From contig NZ_CP127247.1 of assembly GCF_030285785.1 (NCBI RefSeq), forward strand, positions 744,001-808,000: DNA of 64,000 nt, given 5' to 3'. The position numbers and the translations under genes are program-made. The notes beneath the pieces were generated by a model. It had not been told where the DNA came from and made no database searches. It saw only the letters and a list, made by a program, of their open reading frames with translations. This DNA is from Parasedimentitalea psychrophila. Lineage in GTDB: Bacteria; Pseudomonadota; Alphaproteobacteria; Rhodobacterales; Rhodobacteraceae. This document shows, in pieces, positions 7,387-16,435 of this stretch (positions are counted from its first letter, which is position 1; each line of letters opens with the position of its first letter).

Positions 7387-8259
7387 TCAGGAAAATTTTC
7401 GGAACAGACGGGTCATGTCGAACAGCTCATCCAGACGCTCATAGCGGTCGCGGGTTTCGCTCCAGCTTTCTTCCTGAGTGGCCGCAATCATCGCTTCAAG
7501 CAGCATCATGGTCGCGATATTGGAATCCCAGGCCGAAGGGATCTCGACCCAGCAGTTAAAACTATACTGTGCCACAGATGCAATTGGGCTGGCCCACTGA
7601 TCGGTGATCAGAATAACCTTCACCCCACGTTCCGCCGCCAGTTCAGCCAGACGTTGCAAGTTGGTCTCGTAGCGCCGCACGTCGAACAACAGCAGAGTGT
7701 CGCCCTCGACCATGTCCAGCACATAATGCGGCCAGGTTGCGGCAGAGGAGGTCATCGTGGTCACCCGCTGCCGGACCGCCTGAAAGTGGGTAAAGGCATA
7801 ATCGGCCAATGCCCGGGTGATCCGGCCGCCGACCACATAAAGCCGCCCGTCGGTGTTGGCCAATTGCCTCACCGCCGCGTCAAAGCTCGCGGAATCGATA
7901 TTGGAGAAGGTCTGCTCCAGGTTTTCGGTCACCGCTTGGGAAAATCTGTTCAGAAGATGGCCTTCGGGGGCCTCGGTAACCCAATTGGCGCGCCTCTGGG
8001 TTGGCCCCGAGACCTGAGCCTGCAGCTCTTTCAACAATGCCTGATGGAACTGAGGATAGCCCTTGAACCCCAGCTTTTGCACCATCCGCGCCACCGTCGG
8101 CGTCGAAACCCCTGCATTGGCAGCGACGATGGTGATCGAGGCAAGCCCCGCCGACGGATAGTTTTCCAGCAATGAATTCGCGAACTTACGCTCTGATTGC
8201 GTCAGCGAGGAATACTGCTCACGGATCAGCTCTCGAACGGTGGCCGCTGGTTTACTCAA
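7387..8259 (-). CDS. MurR/RpiR-family transcriptional regulator
   Basis: 290 residues with an N-terminal RpiR HTH (residues about 1-80; LTQSERKFANSLLENY and VSTPTVARMVQKLGFKGYPQF are typical) and a C-terminal SIS domain (about 120-260; LYVVGGRIT, then LLLFDVRRYE). RpiR regulators bind phosphosugars or other small metabolites through the SIS domain. Its start is a TTG at 8259, supported by AAGGA 8 bases upstream. It is divergent from the FGase/TRAP operon, which makes it the likely local regulator. The usual SIS serines are poorly conserved (FDVRRYE), which would fit a non-sugar ligand. Confidence 0.88.
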   Translation of the reverse strand: MSKPAATVRELIREQYSSLTQSERKFANSLLENYPSAGLASITIVAANAGVSTPTVARMVQKLGFKGYPQFHQALLKELQAQVSGPTQRRANWVTEAPEGHLLNRFSQAVTENLEQTFSNIDSASFDAAVRQLANTDGRLYVVGGRITRALADYAFTHFQAVRQRVTTMTSSAATWPHYVLDMVEGDTLLLFDVRRYETNLQRLAELAAERGVKVILITDQWASPIASVAQYSFNCWVEIPSAWDSNIATMMLLEAMIAATQEESWSETRDRYERLDELFDMTRLFRKFS

Positions 8260-8344
8260 GCTCTCGGTCCTTTTCCATTTGCCCGCAATTTAAGCACCTA
8301 CCCTGTATCTTGATCAAACCGATACACCAAGTGCTTCTGCCGAC

Positions 8345-8383
8345 TGAAAAGATATTGACACAACTCAATCCTCATGAAAAGAT
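8345..8383 (+). promoter_or_regulatory. Direct repeats and promoter ahead of the FGase/TRAP operon
   Basis: TGAAAAGAT occurs at 8345-8353 and again at 8375-8383, exactly 30 bp apart (about three helical turns). Between them lies TTGACA (8355-8360); the second repeat falls where a -10 would be. This is a plausible binding region for the divergent RpiR-type regulator. The link is inference. Confidence 0.4.
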
Positions 8384-8407
8384 TTTTCCAAAATGGGGAG
8401 AACGTGA

Positions 8408-9193
8408 ATGTCACGGAGCGATTCCAACGCTCGTACACAGGCCGTAGAGGTCAGCAACCCGGAGGGATCCGGGCCTGCGCTGATTCTCTGCGAGCACGCC
8501 AGCAATCATTTCCCGGCGCAGTTTGGCGACCTGGGACTTGCGGCTGGCGACCAGAAAAGTCACGCCGCCTGGGACCCGGGCGCGCGGGCCATTGCGCTGC
8601 ATCTCAGCCAGGTGCTGAATGCACCGATGGTGGCAAGCCAGGTGTCGCGACTGGTCTACGACTGCAATCGCCCCCCCGAGGTGGCCTCGGCGATGCCGGT
8701 GAAATCAGAGCTGATCGAAATTCCCGGCAATCGCGATCTGACCGATGACCAGCGGCTCCAACGGGTTGACGCGGTCTATCGCCCCTTCTGTGACGCCGTC
8801 AGTGAGGTGATCAAAGCCCGCCAGGATGCTGGCCTGGACACCGTACTGATCACCATCCACAGCTTCACACCCGTCTACTACGGCCAGCCCCGCGCCGTCG
8901 AAATCGGCATTCTGCACGATGATGACACGGCGATGGCTGATGCCATGCTGGCCCATGCGCCGTCGCTGCCGCACCGGCGGGTCGAGCGCAATCAGCCCTA
9001 CGGTCCACAGGATGGTGTCACCCATTCGCTGAAGCTGCACGGTATCGCCCACGGGTTGGCCAACGTGATGATCGAGGTTCGCAATGATCTGCTGCGCACG
9101 CCGCAACAAGAAACCGCGATGGCCGAGGAACTTTTGACCCTGATCCGGCCCGCTCTCGCCGCATTGGTGCAACAAGGGGGCGACAATGCCTAG
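8408..9193 (+). CDS. N-formylglutamate amidohydrolase-family protein
   Basis: 261 residues. The N-terminal LILCEHASNHFP (metal-binding Glu and His), AAWDPGARAIA and the later TIHSFTPV and VMIEVRNDLL blocks match the FGase (HutG-type) fold, a zinc-dependent amide hydrolase that releases glutamate from N-formylglutamate. The start is well defined: GGGGAG lies 7 bases before the ATG. There is no histidine-utilisation gene nearby, so the natural substrate is probably not N-formylglutamate. In this operon an amide hydrolase releasing glutamate from a gamma-glutamyl product would make sense, but that is inference. It overlaps the TRAP small permease by 8 bp. Confidence 0.87.
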   Translation: MSRSDSNARTQAVEVSNPEGSGPALILCEHASNHFPAQFGDLGLAAGDQKSHAAWDPGARAIALHLSQVLNAPMVASQVSRLVYDCNRPPEVASAMPVKSELIEIPGNRDLTDDQRLQRVDAVYRPFCDAVSEVIKARQDAGLDTVLITIHSFTPVYYGQPRAVEIGILHDDDTAMADAMLAHAPSLPHRRVERNQPYGPQDGVTHSLKLHGIAHGLANVMIEVRNDLLRTPQQETAMAEELLTLIRPALAALVQQGGDNA

Positions 9194-9782
9194 AATAATA
9201 ACCGGATATATCCGGGGTGTGGATGCCATGAACCGCTTCATTGGTCGGTTTGCCATGTATCTGATCTTTGTGTTGATCGGGGTGCTGCTTTGGTCCTCCA
9301 TTTCCAAGACCTTTTTCTATCCCTCGATCTGGACGCTTGAGATGGCGCAGTTTGTGATGGTTGCCTATTATATCCTGGGCGGGCCCTATTCGATCCAGAT
9401 GGGGTCAAACGTGCGCATGGACCTGTTCTATGGCGGCTGGTCGACCAAAACCAAAGCCTGGATTGATGCCTTCACGGTGTTTTTCCTGATCTTCTACCTC
9501 GGGGTGCTGCTGTTTGGCGCGGTGGGCTCCACCGCCTATTCACTGGGCTATTTCGGGGTCGAGCCGTTCTCGTTCTTCTGGGATCTGTTCCTCACGCTGT
9601 TCACCGACGGAATGTCGGGTGTCGCTGAGAAAATCGGCCATATGGAACGCAGCCCAACCGCCTGGCGACCCTATCTGTGGCCGGTGAAATCCATGTTGTG
9701 TTTTGGCGTCATTCTGATGCTGGCACAAAGCCTTGCAGAACTGTTCCGGGATATCGGACGTCTTCGCGGAGTAGACCTCTGA
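9186..9782 (+). CDS. TRAP transporter small permease (DctQ family)
   Basis: 198 residues with hydrophobic segments near residues 17-35, 45-65, 92-115 and 165-190, the four-helix pattern of TRAP small membrane subunits. It pairs with the large permease, whose start overlaps its stop (TGATG), and with the periplasmic protein 1.5 kb downstream. A hydrophilic loop of about 50 residues before the last helix (DGMSGVAEKIGHMERSPTAW) makes it longer than many DctQ proteins. Confidence 0.9.
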   Translation: MPRIITGYIRGVDAMNRFIGRFAMYLIFVLIGVLLWSSISKTFFYPSIWTLEMAQFVMVAYYILGGPYSIQMGSNVRMDLFYGGWSTKTKAWIDAFTVFFLIFYLGVLLFGAVGSTAYSLGYFGVEPFSFFWDLFLTLFTDGMSGVAEKIGHMERSPTAWRPYLWPVKSMLCFGVILMLAQSLAELFRDIGRLRGVDL

Positions 9783-11284
9783 TGTCTTATGAAATGATTG
9801 CTATCTTGATGTTCAGCGGCATGATGCTGATGCTGATGACCGGCCAGCGGGTGTTTGGCGCCATCGGCTTTATTGGCGCTGCCGCGGGCATGGCGCTCTG
9901 GGGTGTTGGTGGTTCCGACATTCCCTTTGCAGCGGCGATGAAGCTGATGAAATGGTATCCGATGCTGACGCTGCCGATGTTCATCTTCATGGGCTATGTG
10001 CTGTCGGAATCCAAAATCGCCGACGATCTATACAAGATGTTCCACGTCTGGATGGGCCCGGTCAAAGGCGGCCTGGCCATCGGCACCATTGGCTTGATGG
10101 TGCTGGTCTCGGCGATGAACGGGTTGTCGGTGGCGGGTATGGCCATTGGCGCCACCATCGCCCTGCCCGAGCTGTTGCGCCGTGGCTATGACAAAATCCT
10201 GGTCACCGGCGTGGTGCAGGCGGGCTCGTCACTGGGCATTCTGGTGCCGCCGTCGGTGGTGCTGGTGCTCTATGCGATGATCGCCCGCCAGCCGGTGAGC
10301 CAGCTGTGGCTGGCCGGGGTGCTGCCGGGGTTGATGATGGCGGTGATGTTCATCGTCTACATCTATGTCCGCGCCCGCCTGCAGCCTGATCTTGGCCCGG
10401 CGATGTCACCCGAAGATCTGGCAGAATACGAGCAGATCTCAGAACACCCCCTGCGGCTGAATTATATCGTGCTGGGAACTCTGGTGCTGCTGCCGCTGCT
10501 GATGATGGCCGGGCTGTCCGGACCAAAGACCTCGGCAACAATTGCCCTTACCGCCTCGGCTGCCGCGTTTATCCTGCGCCATGACCCGAGGGTCTTTAGC
10601 GACATCTTCATGAAGGAAAAGCACCGGCTGCTGTTCTCGGGCGTGTTGCCGCTGGCAATCTTTGCCGCGATGATGGTGCCCTTCATCAACGGCTGGACCT
10701 CGCTGGTGGAAAGCTCGGCAATTGGCGCCATGGCTGCCTTTATCGCCGCAGTTCTCAAGGGCCGGATGAACCGCGACGTGTTTGAGACGACCCTGCGCTC
10801 GACGCTGGGGATTTCCTGCATGTTCATGTGGATCATCCTGGCTGCACTTGGCTTTGGCGCCATCTTTGACGGGCTCGGCGCGGTCAATGCGATCAAGGAC
10901 CTGTTCACCAGCCAGCTGGGCCTGTCGCCTTGGATGATCCTGATCCTGATGCAGGTGAGTTTCCTGCTGATGGGGACTTTCCTGGATGACACTGCCATGC
11001 TGGTGATCGTGGCGCCGCTCTATGTGCCATTGGTGGGCGAACTTGGGTTCGACCTGATCTGGTATGGCGTCCTTTACACCATCACCACCCAGATCGCCTA
11101 TATGACGCCGCCGTTTGGCTATAACCTGTTTCTGATGCGCGCCATGGCACCGCCGGAAATCAGCCTGCGCGACATCTATATTTCGATCATCCCCTTTGCC
11201 CTGATTATGGTTCTGGCCTTATCACTGGTGATGATCTTCCCACAGATCGCCCTGTGGCTGCCCGACTATGTTTACGGAAAATAA
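9782..11284 (+). CDS. TRAP transporter large permease (DctM family)
   Basis: 500 residues, highly hydrophobic throughout, with DctM hallmarks such as GSSLGILVPPSVVLVLYA, NGLSVAGMAIGATIALPELL and FLDDTAMLVIVAPLYVP. The subunit forms the sodium-driven transport channel. The ATG at 9782 is chosen because it overlaps the small-permease stop; longer in-frame starts would run through that gene. Substrate specificity is set by the periplasmic protein and cannot be read from here. Confidence 0.95.
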   Translation: MSYEMIAILMFSGMMLMLMTGQRVFGAIGFIGAAAGMALWGVGGSDIPFAAAMKLMKWYPMLTLPMFIFMGYVLSESKIADDLYKMFHVWMGPVKGGLAIGTIGLMVLVSAMNGLSVAGMAIGATIALPELLRRGYDKILVTGVVQAGSSLGILVPPSVVLVLYAMIARQPVSQLWLAGVLPGLMMAVMFIVYIYVRARLQPDLGPAMSPEDLAEYEQISEHPLRLNYIVLGTLVLLPLLMMAGLSGPKTSATIALTASAAAFILRHDPRVFSDIFMKEKHRLLFSGVLPLAIFAAMMVPFINGWTSLVESSAIGAMAAFIAAVLKGRMNRDVFETTLRSTLGISCMFMWIILAALGFGAIFDGLGAVNAIKDLFTSQLGLSPWMILILMQVSFLLMGTFLDDTAMLVIVAPLYVPLVGELGFDLIWYGVLYTITTQIAYMTPPFGYNLFLMRAMAPPEISLRDIYISIIPFALIMVLALSLVMIFPQIALWLPDYVYGK

Positions 11285-11295
11285 TCACAAGAAGA

Positions 11296-11310
11296 GCCCC
11301 GTCAGGGGGC
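11296..11310 (+). repeat. Small stem-loop between TRAP permease and binding-protein genes
   Basis: GCCCC-GTCAG-GGGGC forms a 5-bp GC stem directly after the permease gene. With no T-run it is more likely an mRNA processing or stability element than a terminator. Confidence 0.35.
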
Positions 11311-11335
11311 CGGAATTTCAAATAGGAGAGACAAC

Positions 11336-12370
11336 ATGACCACAAGACGTAAGTTTATTGCCGCTGCTGGTGCTGGCGCAATCGCCGCGCCATTGGCGAC
11401 ACCGGCGCTGGCGCAATCCACCATCAAATGGCGGATGCAGACCTATGCAGGTGCTGCTCTTGGTGAGCACGTGATCAAGCCTGCCATCGACATGTTCAAC
11501 AAGATCGCAGGCGACCGCATGCAGATCGAACTGTTCTATGCCGACCAGCTGGTGCCAACCGGCGAGCTGTTCCGCGCCATGCAGCGCGGCACAATCGACG
11601 CTGTTCAGTCCGACGATGACTCGATGGCCTCGCCGACCGAAGTTACCGTGTTTGGCGGCTACTTCCCGTTTGGTTCGCGCTACTCGCTCGACGTGCCGGT
11701 GCTGTTCAACCAGTACGGGTTGAACGAGATCTGGGACGAAGAATACTCCAAGGTGGGCGTCAAGCACATCTCGGCCGGGGCCTGGGATCCCTGCCACTTT
11801 GCCACCAAAGACCCAATCCGCAGCCTAGCTGACCTGAAGGGCAAGCGGGTCTTTACCTTCCCAACTGCTGGACGTTTCCTGAGCCAGTTCGGCGTTGTTC
11901 CAGTGACACTGCCATGGGAAGATATCGAAGTTGCGGTTCAAACAGGCGAGCTGGACGGCATCGCATGGTCGGGCATCACCGAGGACTACACTGTTGGTTG
12001 GGCTGACGTGACCAACTACTTCCTGACCAACAACATCTCGGGCGCATGGGCCGGGTCGTTCTTTACCAACATGGATCGTTGGAACGAGCTGCCAGAAGAC
12101 ATGCAGACCCTGTTCCGCGCTTGCTGTGACCAGTCGCATTACTATCGTCAGTGGTGGTACTGGGGTGGCGAAGCCTCGCTGCGGGTCAATGGCCCCAAGA
12201 TGGAGCTGACCACCATTCCTGACGAAGAGTGGAAAACCGTCGAAGACGCAGCGGTCAAGTTCTGGGATGAGATTGCCGACGAAAGCCCCACCAAGGCCAA
12301 GGTTGTCGAGATCTTCAAGAAGTACAATGCCGACATGCAGGCGGCTGGCCGTCCTTACCGTTACGGCTAA
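11336..12370 (+). CDS. TRAP transporter substrate-binding protein (DctP family)
   Basis: 344 residues. The N-terminus TTRRKFIAAAGAGAIAAP is Tat-like (twin Arg followed by a hydrophobic stretch), with likely cleavage after TPALA. The mature protein has DctP features: the Tyr/Phe-rich ligand pocket, LADLKGKRVFTFPTAGRF with the Arg usually contacting a carboxylate, and the GELDGIAWSGITEDYTVGW hinge region. A good RBS (TAGGAGAG) precedes the ATG. The conserved pocket Arg suggests an organic acid or zwitterion. Linked enzymes point to an amine or amino alcohol, so the ligand remains open. Confidence 0.93.
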   Translation: MTTRRKFIAAAGAGAIAAPLATPALAQSTIKWRMQTYAGAALGEHVIKPAIDMFNKIAGDRMQIELFYADQLVPTGELFRAMQRGTIDAVQSDDDSMASPTEVTVFGGYFPFGSRYSLDVPVLFNQYGLNEIWDEEYSKVGVKHISAGAWDPCHFATKDPIRSLADLKGKRVFTFPTAGRFLSQFGVVPVTLPWEDIEVAVQTGELDGIAWSGITEDYTVGWADVTNYFLTNNISGAWAGSFFTNMDRWNELPEDMQTLFRACCDQSHYYRQWWYWGGEASLRVNGPKMELTTIPDEEWKTVEDAAVKFWDEIADESPTKAKVVEIFKKYNADMQAAGRPYRYG

Positions 12371-12379
12371 TATGACAAT

Positions 12380-12403
12380 GCCCCGGCGCATCAGTGCCGG
12401 GGC
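12380..12403 (+). repeat. GC-rich stem-loop after dctP
   Basis: GCCCCGGC and GCCGGGGC form an 8-bp perfect stem around an 8-base loop just past the binding-protein stop. It has no T-run. It probably protects the upstream mRNA 3' end, as known for intergenic hairpins behind periplasmic binding-protein genes. Confidence 0.6.
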
Positions 12404-12424
12404 TCCCTTGATACAACAGGAATA

Positions 12425-13792
12425 ATGCCGATGTCTGGTGTTCTTAGTTTTGATGATCTGAAGGCCCAAGTCGCGTCCGGCGACGTGGATACTGTTCTGG
12501 TCTGTCTTGTCGACATGCAGGGCCGCCTGATGGGCAAACGCTTTCATGCCCAACATTTCTTGAACGGCGCCTGGGAAGAGACCCATTGCTGTAACTATCT
12601 TCTGGCCACCGATCTGGAGATGGCCACACCGGATGGCTATGCCTCGACCAGCTGGGAGTCGGGATATGGTGACTATGTGATGAAACCCGACCTGACCACC
12701 CTGCGGCCAATGCCGTGGCTGGAAGGAACGGTGATGGTGCTCTGCGATGTGCTCGACCACAACACCCACCAAGATATCCCCCATTCCCCCCGCGCGGTGC
12801 TGAAAAAGCAGCTGAAGCGGCTGGAGGCACTGGGACTGGATGCGATCATGGCCACCGAACTGGAGTTTTTCCTGTTCGAGAAGAGCTTTGATGAGATCCG
12901 TAAGGGTCAGTTCCGCGATCTGGCGCCGATCTCTGGCTACAACGAAGATTACAACATCCTGCAAACCACCCGCGAAGAGCACGTGATGCGGCCGCTGCGC
13001 AATCACCTGTGGAACGCCGGAATTCCGGTGGAATGCACCAAGGGTGAGGCCGCGGCGGGTCAGGAAGAGCTGAACATCAAATATGATGCGGCGCTGAACA
13101 CCGCCGATTTTCACACCATCGCCAAACACGCCACCAAGGAGATTGCCTGGCAGCAGGGTCACGCGGTCACCTTCATGCCAAAATGGGATCAGCACAAATC
13201 CGGCTCGTCGAGCCATGTGCACCAGTCGTTGTGGCAGGATGGCAAACCCGCCTTTTATGATGAGAGTGACGCGTTGGGCATGTCCCAGCTGATGAAGCAC
13301 TATCTGGCTGGGATGCTGAAATACGCCCCCGACTATACCTATTTTCTGGCGCCCTATATCAACAGCTACAAACGCTTCATGAAGGGCACCTTTGCGCCGA
13401 CCCGGATCATCTGGTCGGTGGACAACCGCACCGCCGGCTATCGTCTCTGTGGAGCGGGCACCAAGGGTATCCGGGTGGAATGCCGCGTTGGCGGCTCGGA
13501 CCTGAACCCCTATCTGGCCTGTGCTGTACAGCTGGCCGCCGGCATTGCTGGTATCGAGGAGAAGCTGCAGTTGCAGGCCCCGAGCACCGGCGATGTCTAT
13601 CAGGGCGATACCGGCATGATCCCGTCGAACCTGCGCGATGCACGGGTTGCACTGCAGGGCTCGGAAATGCTGAAGGCCGCATTGGGGGAGGATGTTGTGC
13701 TGCACTACGCCCGCGCTGCCGAGTGGGAAATCGAAGAATTCGAACGCGTCGTCACCGATTATGAGGTGGCGCGCGGGTTTGAACGCGCCTGA
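12425..13792 (+). CDS. Glutamine synthetase-like gamma-glutamyl ligase
   Basis: 455 residues (453 if the second ATG at 12431 is used). The catalytic core of class I GS is present: ATELEFFLFE and EAAAGQEELNIKY carry metal-binding glutamates, GSSSHVHQSLW the metal histidine, and VECRVGGSDLNPYL the substrate Arg loop. The N-terminal beta-grasp part (LVCLVDMQGRLMGKRF) is the form seen in PuuA, GMAS and related ligases that couple glutamate to amines rather than ammonia. The GS DGSS ammonia-loop motif is not apparent. Located between a TRAP transporter and two dehydrogenases, it is best read as a gamma-glutamyl-amine or gamma-glutamyl-amino-alcohol synthetase; substrate unknown. Confidence 0.85.
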   Translation: MPMSGVLSFDDLKAQVASGDVDTVLVCLVDMQGRLMGKRFHAQHFLNGAWEETHCCNYLLATDLEMATPDGYASTSWESGYGDYVMKPDLTTLRPMPWLEGTVMVLCDVLDHNTHQDIPHSPRAVLKKQLKRLEALGLDAIMATELEFFLFEKSFDEIRKGQFRDLAPISGYNEDYNILQTTREEHVMRPLRNHLWNAGIPVECTKGEAAAGQEELNIKYDAALNTADFHTIAKHATKEIAWQQGHAVTFMPKWDQHKSGSSSHVHQSLWQDGKPAFYDESDALGMSQLMKHYLAGMLKYAPDYTYFLAPYINSYKRFMKGTFAPTRIIWSVDNRTAGYRLCGAGTKGIRVECRVGGSDLNPYLACAVQLAAGIAGIEEKLQLQAPSTGDVYQGDTGMIPSNLRDARVALQGSEMLKAALGEDVVLHYARAAEWEIEEFERVVTDYEVARGFERA

Positions 13793-13803
13793 GCCGTCCA
13801 GAA

Positions 13804-13875
13804 CCGCGCCGTTTGTATTGGCGGCGCGGATAGGAGCCTCCGGCGGAGGTATTTAAAACAAGAAGAAGCAGGGGG
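13804..13875. repeat. Dispersed palindromic intergenic element, copy A
   Basis: Two hairpins follow the ligase gene: CCGCGCCG/CGGCGCGG (13804-13829) and CCTCC-GGC-GGAGG (13837-13849). After them comes GGTATTTAAAACAAGAAGAAG. The last segment reappears in inverse orientation at 33331-33354 (GAGGTATTT...ACAAGAAGAAG shared) and in diverged form at 19922-19944. This is a repeat family; the hairpins may act as terminators or mRNA stabilisers. Confidence 0.6.
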
Positions 13876-13907
13876 CCTGGGCGCCTTGTGAACCTGGAGT
13901 AGATGGC

Positions 13908-15290
13908 ATGGGCCAGACATTGAAATGTATCTCGCCGATCGATGGGTCGGTATATGCGGAGCGCGATGTGCTCTCAAACGAGGCGGCGTTTGACGCGGCG
14001 GCCCGCGCCCGAGCGGCGCAGGCGGATTGGGCGGCGCGGCCATTGGCTGAGCGTATCAGCCTGGTGATGGCAGGCGTCGCCGCGGTTGGCGCGATGAACG
14101 ATGAGATTGTGCCGGAACTGGCCCATATGATGGGGCGCCCGGTGCGGTTTGGCGGTGAGTTTGGCGGCTTCAATGAACGTGCCAGCCACATGGCGGAGAT
14201 CGCTGTGGAGGCCTTGGCGGATATCAAGGTCAGCGAAGACGCGACATTCAAGCGTTATATCAAGCATATTCCGCATGGCGTTGTACTGGTGGTGGCGCCG
14301 TGGAACTATCCCTATATGACCGCCATCAACACGGTGGCGCCGGCCCTGATTGCCGGAAACACTGTTGTGCTAAAACACGCGACCCAGACCCTGCTGGTGG
14401 GTGAGCGTATGGCGGCGGCGTTCCACGCGGCAGGCGTGCCCGAAGATGTGTTCCAGAATGTGTTCCTGGATCACGACACCACCTCGGCGCTGATTGCCGG
14501 CAAGGCGTTCAACTTTGTCAACTTCACCGGCTCTGTTGGCGGCGGCAAGGCGATGGAGCGCGCAGCGGCAGGCACCTTCACCGGCGTCGGCACCGAACTG
14601 GGCGGCAAAGATCCCGGCTATGTGATGGAGGACGCCGATCTGGAGGCCGCCGTTGAGACGCTGATTGACGGTGCCATGTTCAACTCGGGCCAGTGCTGTT
14701 GCGGCATCGAGCGCATTTATGTGCATGAAAGCCACTATGATGCCTTTCTGGAAAAAGCCGTGGGCATCGTCAATGGCTACACCTTAGGCAACCCACTGGA
14801 TCGCGACACCACCATTGGGCCGATGGCCAATGTGCGCTTTGCGCAAGAGGTGCGCGAGCAGATCTCGGAGGCTGTTGCCGCAGGCGCGGTGGCCCATATT
14901 GAGACCATGGCGGCGGATGATGGGGGCGCCTATCTGACACCGCAGATCCTGACCAATGTGACCCACGAGATGCGGGTGATGCAGGACGAGAGCTTTGGCC
15001 CGGTGGTTGGCATAATGAAGGTATCCTCCGACGAAGAAGCCATTGCGCTGATGAACGACAGTAATTTTGGCCTGACCGCGTCCCTGTGGACCAAAGACGT
15101 TGAGCGCGCCCAGCGTGTTGGTGATTTGATCGAGACCGGCACCGTGTTCATGAACCGCGCCGACTACCTGGATCCGGGCCTGTGCTGGACCGGCTGCAAA
15201 GACACTGGCCGCGGTGGCGGCCTTTCGGTAATCGGGTATCATAACCTGACCCGCCCCAAATCCTACCATCTGAAGAAGGTAACAAGCTGA
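13908..15290 (+). CDS. Aldehyde dehydrogenase (NAD(P)-dependent)
   Basis: 460 residues of the ALDH superfamily. APWNYPYM (cofactor pocket), NFTGSVGGGKAM, TELGGKDPGYV (general-base Glu) and NSGQCCCGIERIYV (nucleophilic Cys) are all present. It oxidises an aldehyde to the acid in the cytoplasm. It overlaps the downstream alcohol dehydrogenase by one base (TGATG), so the two probably carry out consecutive oxidations of one substrate. The chain is a little shorter than typical betaine-aldehyde or PuuC-type enzymes (about 490). Confidence 0.92.
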   Translation: MGQTLKCISPIDGSVYAERDVLSNEAAFDAAARARAAQADWAARPLAERISLVMAGVAAVGAMNDEIVPELAHMMGRPVRFGGEFGGFNERASHMAEIAVEALADIKVSEDATFKRYIKHIPHGVVLVVAPWNYPYMTAINTVAPALIAGNTVVLKHATQTLLVGERMAAAFHAAGVPEDVFQNVFLDHDTTSALIAGKAFNFVNFTGSVGGGKAMERAAAGTFTGVGTELGGKDPGYVMEDADLEAAVETLIDGAMFNSGQCCCGIERIYVHESHYDAFLEKAVGIVNGYTLGNPLDRDTTIGPMANVRFAQEVREQISEAVAAGAVAHIETMAADDGGAYLTPQILTNVTHEMRVMQDESFGPVVGIMKVSSDEEAIALMNDSNFGLTASLWTKDVERAQRVGDLIETGTVFMNRADYLDPGLCWTGCKDTGRGGGLSVIGYHNLTRPKSYHLKKVTS

Positions 15291-16435
15291 TGAGCCTTGT
15301 TGGAAACTGGTCCTACCCGACCGCAATCAAGTTCGGCGCTGGCCGGATCAAAGAACTGCCCGAAGCCTGTGCCTCGGCTGGCATCACAAAGCCGCTGCTG
15401 GTCACCGACAAGGGCCTGGCCGCGCTGCCGATCACCAGCGCCACGCTGGATATCATGGAGGCTGCGGGCCTGGGCCGGGGCCTGTTCAGCGACGTAGACC
15501 CGAACCCAAATGAGAAGAACCTGGAAGCCGGGGTCGCCGCCTATAATGCGGGTGGCTATGACGGTGTGATCGCCTTTGGCGGTGGCTCGGGCTTGGATCT
15601 GGGCAAGATGGTGGCCTTTATGGCGGGCCAGACCCGTCCGCTATGGGATTTTGAGGATATTGGCGACTGGTGGACCCGCGCTGATGCGGATGTGATCGCA
15701 CCGATCATCGCGGTGCCAACCACCGCCGGCACCGGATCGGAAGTTGGCCGCGCCAGCGTCATCACCGACAGCGTTACCCACGCCAAGAAGATCATATTTC
15801 ACCCCAAGGTGCTGCCGGCAGTGGTGATCTGTGACCCTGAGCTGACCGTGGGTATGCCCAAGTTCATCACGGCGGGTACCGGTCTGGATGCCTTTGCCCA
15901 TTGCGTCGAGGCGTTCTCTAGCCCGCATTACCACCCGATGTCGCAGGGCATCGCGCTGGAAGGCATGCGCCTGGTCAAGGACTACCTGCCACGCGCCTAC
16001 AGCGATGGCAGTGATATCCAGGCCCGTGCGCAGCTGATGTCAGCGGCCACAATGGGCGCCACCGGGTTCCAAAAGGGGCTGGGCGCCATTCACGCCATGA
16101 GCCACCCGATTGGGGCGCATTTCAACACCCACCACGGCACCACCAACGCGGTCTGTATGCCTGAGGTTTTGAAATTCAACGCCAGCGCCATCGCCGACCG
16201 CTTTGGCAAGGTGGCGGCCTATCTTGGCATCGACGGCGGCTTTGATGGATTTTGCGCCTATGTGGATGAGCTGAACGACAGCATGGGCATTCCGCGCAAA
16301 CTGTCGGAACTGGGGGTCACCGAGGCCAGCATTCCTGAGCTGGTCAAGGGCGCGATCATTGATCCAAGTTGCGGCGGCAACCCGATTGAGCTGACCGAAG
16401 AAAACCTGACGGCCCTGTTCAAAGCCGCTCTTTAA
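15290..16435 (+). CDS. Iron-containing alcohol dehydrogenase
   Basis: 381 residues of the group III (Fe-dependent) alcohol dehydrogenase family. NAD-binding GGGSGLDLGKMVAFM, VPTTAGTGSEVGRASVIT, and metal ligands in GLDAFAHCVEAF and IHAMSHPIGAHFNTHHGTTNA are clear. It oxidises a primary alcohol to an aldehyde, or the reverse. Coupled to the upstream ALDH, it would convert an alcohol group to a carboxylate in two steps. It is the last gene of the operon; a strong terminator follows. Confidence 0.93.
   Translation: MSLVGNWSYPTAIKFGAGRIKELPEACASAGITKPLLVTDKGLAALPITSATLDIMEAAGLGRGLFSDVDPNPNEKNLEAGVAAYNAGGYDGVIAFGGGSGLDLGKMVAFMAGQTRPLWDFEDIGDWWTRADADVIAPIIAVPTTAGTGSEVGRASVITDSVTHAKKIIFHPKVLPAVVICDPELTVGMPKFITAGTGLDAFAHCVEAFSSPHYHPMSQGIALEGMRLVKDYLPRAYSDGSDIQARAQLMSAATMGATGFQKGLGAIHAMSHPIGAHFNTHHGTTNAVCMPEVLKFNASAIADRFGKVAAYLGIDGGFDGFCAYVDELNDSMGIPRKLSELGVTEASIPELVKGAIIDPSCGGNPIELTEENLTALFKAAL

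Follow-up and report, generated by a model that had tools for sequence, protein, structure and literature searches.

Among the closest described systems for the breakdown of ethanolamine by gamma-glutamylation is the eto operon of Phaeobacter sp. MED193 (MED193_10021 to 10056), in which eight gene types occur and the enzymes carry names (Westermann et al. 2023, PMC10132767). In the passages of that paper on which we draw, Phaeobacter EtoX binds ethanolamine with a dissociation constant (Kd) of 7.88 +/- 1.88 uM and leaves four other named compounds unbound, five operon proteins are raised on phosphorylethanolamine, and etoX is reported for about 5-10% of the bacteria represented in ocean metagenomes, at high levels of expression. 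The same source, citing Vetting et al. 2015, presents eto-type genes as demonstrated to function in Chromohalobacter salexigens and Agrobacterium. A review table assigns the C. salexigens pathway to the families PF00120, PF00465, PF00171 and PF05013, and the review gives glycine and glutamate as the end products in Streptomyces (PMC9397018). Here we consider a locus of Parasedimentitalea psychrophila, located within a stretch of 64,000 nucleotides (the window; NZ_CP127247.1, positions 744,001 to 808,000), and ask how it compares with these systems.

A probable eto-type operon in the window

We consider it about 94% probable that this locus is the known eto-type ethanolamine gamma-glutamylation operon. 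As such it is already known, an ordinary, well-preserved copy of a published pathway. A model's reading of the bare sequence (the original prediction) had described one operon with a tripartite ATP-independent periplasmic (TRAP) importer, a glutamine synthetase (GS)-like ligase, an iron-containing alcohol dehydrogenase (Fe-ADH), an aldehyde dehydrogenase (ALDH), a hydrolase of the N-formylglutamate amidohydrolase (FGase) fold and a divergent RpiR regulator. All are present by Pfam, and the open reading frame (ORF) list places all eight genes within 7387-16435; PF00120, PF00465, PF00171 and PF05013 thus co-occur here. The gene order, RpiR, GGAH, EtoV, EtoW, EtoX, ETAGA, GAADDH, GETADH, matches the order of the MED193 locus tags.

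In the proposed scheme, ethanolamine would enter through the TRAP importer and be coupled by the GS-like ligase, at the expense of ATP, to glutamate at its gamma-carboxyl group. Oxidation of the alcohol, first by the Fe-ADH and next by the ALDH, would yield gamma-glutamylglycine, from which the FGase-family hydrolase would release glutamate and glycine, with the RpiR protein as the probable controller of the operon. That the window copy acts like its relatives is something we infer, as we do the sequence of the two oxidations, the final hydrolysis and the part played by the regulator. The route put forward originally, in which an imported amino alcohol is glutamylated and oxidised twice before an FGase-like enzyme frees the glutamate, agrees with ethanolamine gamma-glutamylation as published, which supports the view that the chemistry was correctly deduced from raw sequence. 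The ammonia-lyase (Eut) pathway offers a different route, and its marker EutB has no match in the organism's own genome; among 14 control genomes only E. coli matched.

Conserved synteny, proposed at the outset as a check, was sought in 82 loci, made up of the best 80 of 525 ligase relatives, all of them close, and two plasmid loci, with the presence of a gene taken from its best tblastn piece and without a gene-by-gene check of intactness. All eight genes stand in order, with the regulator divergent, at 64 of the 82, a few of which carry an extra stretch inside the run. Because this order and the divergent regulator are so widely kept, the gene set is not a product of chance.

The binding protein and the likely substrate

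For this organism, the predicted substrate narrows to ethanolamine through the binding protein. The best solved relative of the window EtoX is 4uab/4xf5 (E 3.8e-193), and 268 of 318 aligned residues (84%) are identical to chain 4uab_A. This structure is Csal_0678 of C. salexigens with ethanolamine bound (PMC12410723; PMC4646407), the ligand being held by Glu220 according to the former source, and the protein described in the latter as lacking an Arg that TRAP binding proteins typically carry. Glu220 in the numbering of PMC12410723 would correspond to index 217 of the 4uab chain, an offset of three, and to residue 216 in the window. The segment GITEDY, which includes E216, is invariant across a 72-row alignment. 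By eye, the window EtoX appears to have a Phe where we presume the Arg motif of TRAP binding proteins to lie.

Might another small amino alcohol, such as alaninol, 3-aminopropanol or serinol, be the true substrate of the same chemistry, with ethanolamine handled on the side? The 4uab chain sequence has a second PDB entry, 4xf5, which we take to hold an alaninol, and the EtoX relatives do fall into two identity groups. Against this, the window EtoX is 92-94% identical to the EtoX of three Phaeobacter loci (L019, L040, L050), besides its likeness to Csal_0678, and in Phaeobacter both the micromolar Kd (7.9 uM) and the five proteins raised on phosphorylethanolamine speak for ethanolamine (PMC10132767). 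We regard this alternative as improbable, and ethanolamine remains the predicted substrate.

The ligase

The ligase shares 342 of 452 aligned residues (76%) with PDB 5dm3, which we take to be Csal_0679. It had been said to lack an evident ammonia-loop motif, and its flap indeed reads KGTFAP where the genome's own GlnA-like protein has PGFEAP. The flap Glu, part of the ammonium site and expected of an ammonia-dependent glutamine synthetase, is thus replaced by Phe. The opposite reading, that an ordinary ammonia-using GS and an FGase acting on N-formylglutamate in histidine breakdown have become neighbours by chance, could appeal to NCBIfam, in which the ligase matches two glutamate--ammonia ligase models best, albeit at scores far below their cut-offs, and to HutG, which belongs to the FGase Pfam family. 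It conflicts, however, with the flap substitution, with the eight-gene order kept across related loci, with the restriction of ligase co-location to one FGase group (see below) and with the gene content of the genome itself, which has five GS-family matches, another of them the best-scoring, and two FGase-family genes besides the one in the window. On the grounds of synteny, of the additional GS and FGase genes and of the altered flap, we reject it as hardly credible.

The FGase-family hydrolase

The window hydrolase matches PDB 2odf (Atu2144) at E 3.2e-81, and what it has in common with HutG is membership of PF05013 only. The genomic context of the gene points to gamma-glutamylglycine as the likely substrate. 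A survey of the order took in 149 genomes, that of P. psychrophila among them, and FGase matches occur in 139, with scores that split into a high and a low group; the dividing line of 156 bits was set after the gap was seen, and one genome (G133) enters the count two times, its equally scoring matches lying ~4.0 Mb apart on one contig. High-scoring matches lie within 10 kb of a ligase in 87 of 92 cases, as compared with 0 of 58 among the low-scoring matches listed. Seen from the other side, 87 of the 108 ligase matches have a high-scoring FGase within the same distance, so the high-scoring group follows the ligase, and the ligase can occur without it. This comparative support for the hydrolase step is the modest value that our analysis adds. 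An FGase as the deglutamylase had been thought new, yet a gamma-glutamylglycine amidohydrolase of this family was already proposed as the last step (PMC6529630), with PF05013 listed in PMC9397018.

In one genome of the survey (G097:C14:98123-99594), an additional FGase precedes a ligase match that spans residues 4-246 only, perhaps the remnant of a second copy that is broken or truncated.

Weighing the assignment

Several observations weigh against the assignment or limit its reach. First, the hydrolase is not universal, since a high-scoring FGase is absent from the 10 kb around 21 of the 108 ligase matches. No obvious substitute hydrolase was seen among 10 neighbour proteins from six FGase-less regions, which comprised four ABC transporter parts, a protein of the major facilitator superfamily, a glutathione S-transferase, two class-III aminotransferases and two proteins without a match; this check covered 15 of the 21 places plus one stray FGase region (L136), with rough ORF calling that missed the ligase itself in several of them. 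The stray region (G112:C1:1696000-1708000) groups FGase, RpiR, DctM and EtoX without the ligase, from which 1.6 Mb of that genome separates them, an arrangement that is a split operon.

Second, because 14 of 71 EtoX relatives are just 63-66% identical to the window EtoX, not every such operon need carry ethanolamine, and this set could possibly represent a second ligand group inside the same operon type. The five members printed (L011, L013, L017, L056, L082) read AAGQDPCNF in place of the window's AGAWDPCHF, with GITEDY unchanged.

Third, there are points in the published record. Phaeobacter EtoX was also raised in a no-phosphorus control (PMC10132767). The C. salexigens pathway is described as predicted in silico in PMC6529630, citing Gerlt 2016, whereas PMC10132767 calls it demonstrated. 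In the passages of PMC10132767, PMC6529630 and PMC9397018 that treat it, hydrolysis is given a name or put forward as a proposal rather than assayed, and the hydrolase gene orf5 of PMC6529630, presumably SCO1615, appears as a glutamine amidotransferase in a figure legend, whereas the discussion assigns it to the formylglutamate amidohydrolase family.

Variation across related loci

The 18 incomplete gene sets comprise eight loci with FGase, GS, ALDH and Fe-ADH and no TRAP genes, four with GS, ALDH and Fe-ADH only, two that end before an Fe-ADH, and four other partial sets. Several lie at contig ends (e.g., L021, L033, L048, L053, L083), and one full-length locus (L043) is without the FGase and TRAP genes. 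Elsewhere an amino acid permease accompanies the four enzymes, and in Thermomicrobium a 47%-identical ligase lies one gene from a gene annotated as an ethanolamine permease. On a broader view, the operon would be one version of a modular platform for amino alcohols, some members of which import amino alcohols other than ethanolamine, or bulkier products of lipid-headgroup breakdown; the ligase and two dehydrogenases would stay together, usually with an FGase-type hydrolase, while the transporters swap among amino acid permease, EamA, oligopeptide-type ABC and TRAP systems, the last with two groups of binding protein. We hold this broader view to be rather unlikely.

Four further loci may be recorded on their own account. 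On a Ruegeria conchae plasmid (L086, 4764-13895), the neighbours of the four enzymes are not TRAP genes but an EamA transporter, a gene of the inositol monophosphatase family and a sulfatase-like hydrolase, possibly a lipid-headgroup variant. On pAA03 of Aminobacter aminovorans, a plasmid typed as conjugative (L093, 8184-18366), they adjoin bhcR and bhcABCD, annotated for glyoxylate/glycolate catabolism, a neighbourhood that would fit glycine as the end product. On pBPHY02 of Paraburkholderia phymatum (L095, 6440-10353), a ligase of 56% identity has a gene of the gamma-glutamyl-GABA hydrolase family nearby, and nif genes are found at a greater distance upstream; no dehydrogenases are annotated beside it in a gene table that is incomplete. 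Finally, a record titled Nocardioides marinus (L010) holds a Rhodobacteraceae-like copy with an 84%-identical ligase, and its name or assembly is probably wrong.

Layout of the locus

The features are collected in Table 1. Along the plus-strand run from the FGase to the Fe-ADH, the gaps are -8, -1, 51, 54, 115 and -1 bases, the negative values being overlaps of FGase with DctQ (8 bases), DctQ with DctM (1) and, as originally noted, ALDH with Fe-ADH (1). The start codon of the regulator (TTG, from the ORF list) is uncertain, and EtoX has an RR pair at residues 4-5. Beyond the regulator lie xylulokinase and xylose isomerase genes; downstream of the Fe-ADH are a GAPDH-like and a sensor-kinase-like ORF.

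Table 1. Genes of the predicted ethanolamine operon, in positions of the window
Feature	Position	Strand	Basis
RpiR-family regulator (HTH_6 + SIS)	7387-8259	-	Pfam; divergent; counterpart of MED193_10021 by gene order
FGase-family (PF05013) hydrolase, proposed gamma-glutamylglycine amidohydrolase (GGAH)	8408-9193	+	Pfam E 7.7e-39; PDB 2odf; co-location; literature
TRAP small permease DctQ (EtoV)	9186-9782	+	Pfam PF04290; gene order
TRAP large permease DctM (EtoW)	9782-11284	+	Pfam PF06808; gene order
DctP, predicted TRAP ethanolamine-binding protein (EtoX)	11336-12370	+	Identity to PDB 4uab_A; GITEDY with E216
GS-like ligase (Gln-synt_C), predicted ethanolamine gamma-glutamylase (ETAGA)	12425-13792	+	Pfam E 6.6e-97; PDB 5dm3 identity; flap residue
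Aldehyde dehydrogenase, counterpart of GAADDH	13908-15290	+	Pfam PF00171 (Aldedh) E 9.9e-113; gene order
Fe-containing alcohol dehydrogenase, counterpart of gamma-glutamylethanolamide dehydrogenase (GETADH)	15290-16435	+	Pfam PF00465 E 1.3e-46; gene order

Comparison with known systems

The Puu and Ipu pathways share the general scheme of glutamylation, oxidation and hydrolysis; they differ in their substrates, polyamines or isopropylamine as against ethanolamine, and PuuD has the class-I amidotransferase fold, not that of FGase. The GlnA4 pathway of Streptomyces coelicolor likewise begins with a gamma-glutamylethanolamide synthetase, GlnA4, a ligase different from the window's for which this synthesis has been shown, and a formylglutamate amidohydrolase-family hydrolase is proposed last; it has a short-chain dehydrogenase (orf2, presumably SCO1611) in place of the Fe-ADH, and the gene list given is without a TRAP importer (PMC6529630). 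The ethanolamine pathway of C. salexigens has the same four enzyme families and a binding protein, Csal_0678, that is 84% identical, a likeness that rests on protein identity and enzyme families.

The MED193 eto operon has the same eight gene types in identical order, with the regulator at the hydrolase end. The likeness to MED193 is one of gene order, the sequence comparison having been made with the other Phaeobacter loci (L019, L040, L050), and the place and name of the MED193 GGAH suggest that it too is an FGase-family protein. Ethanolamine derived from membrane lipids serves as a source of nitrogen and carbon in the sea, and the window copy adds one carrier to those described.

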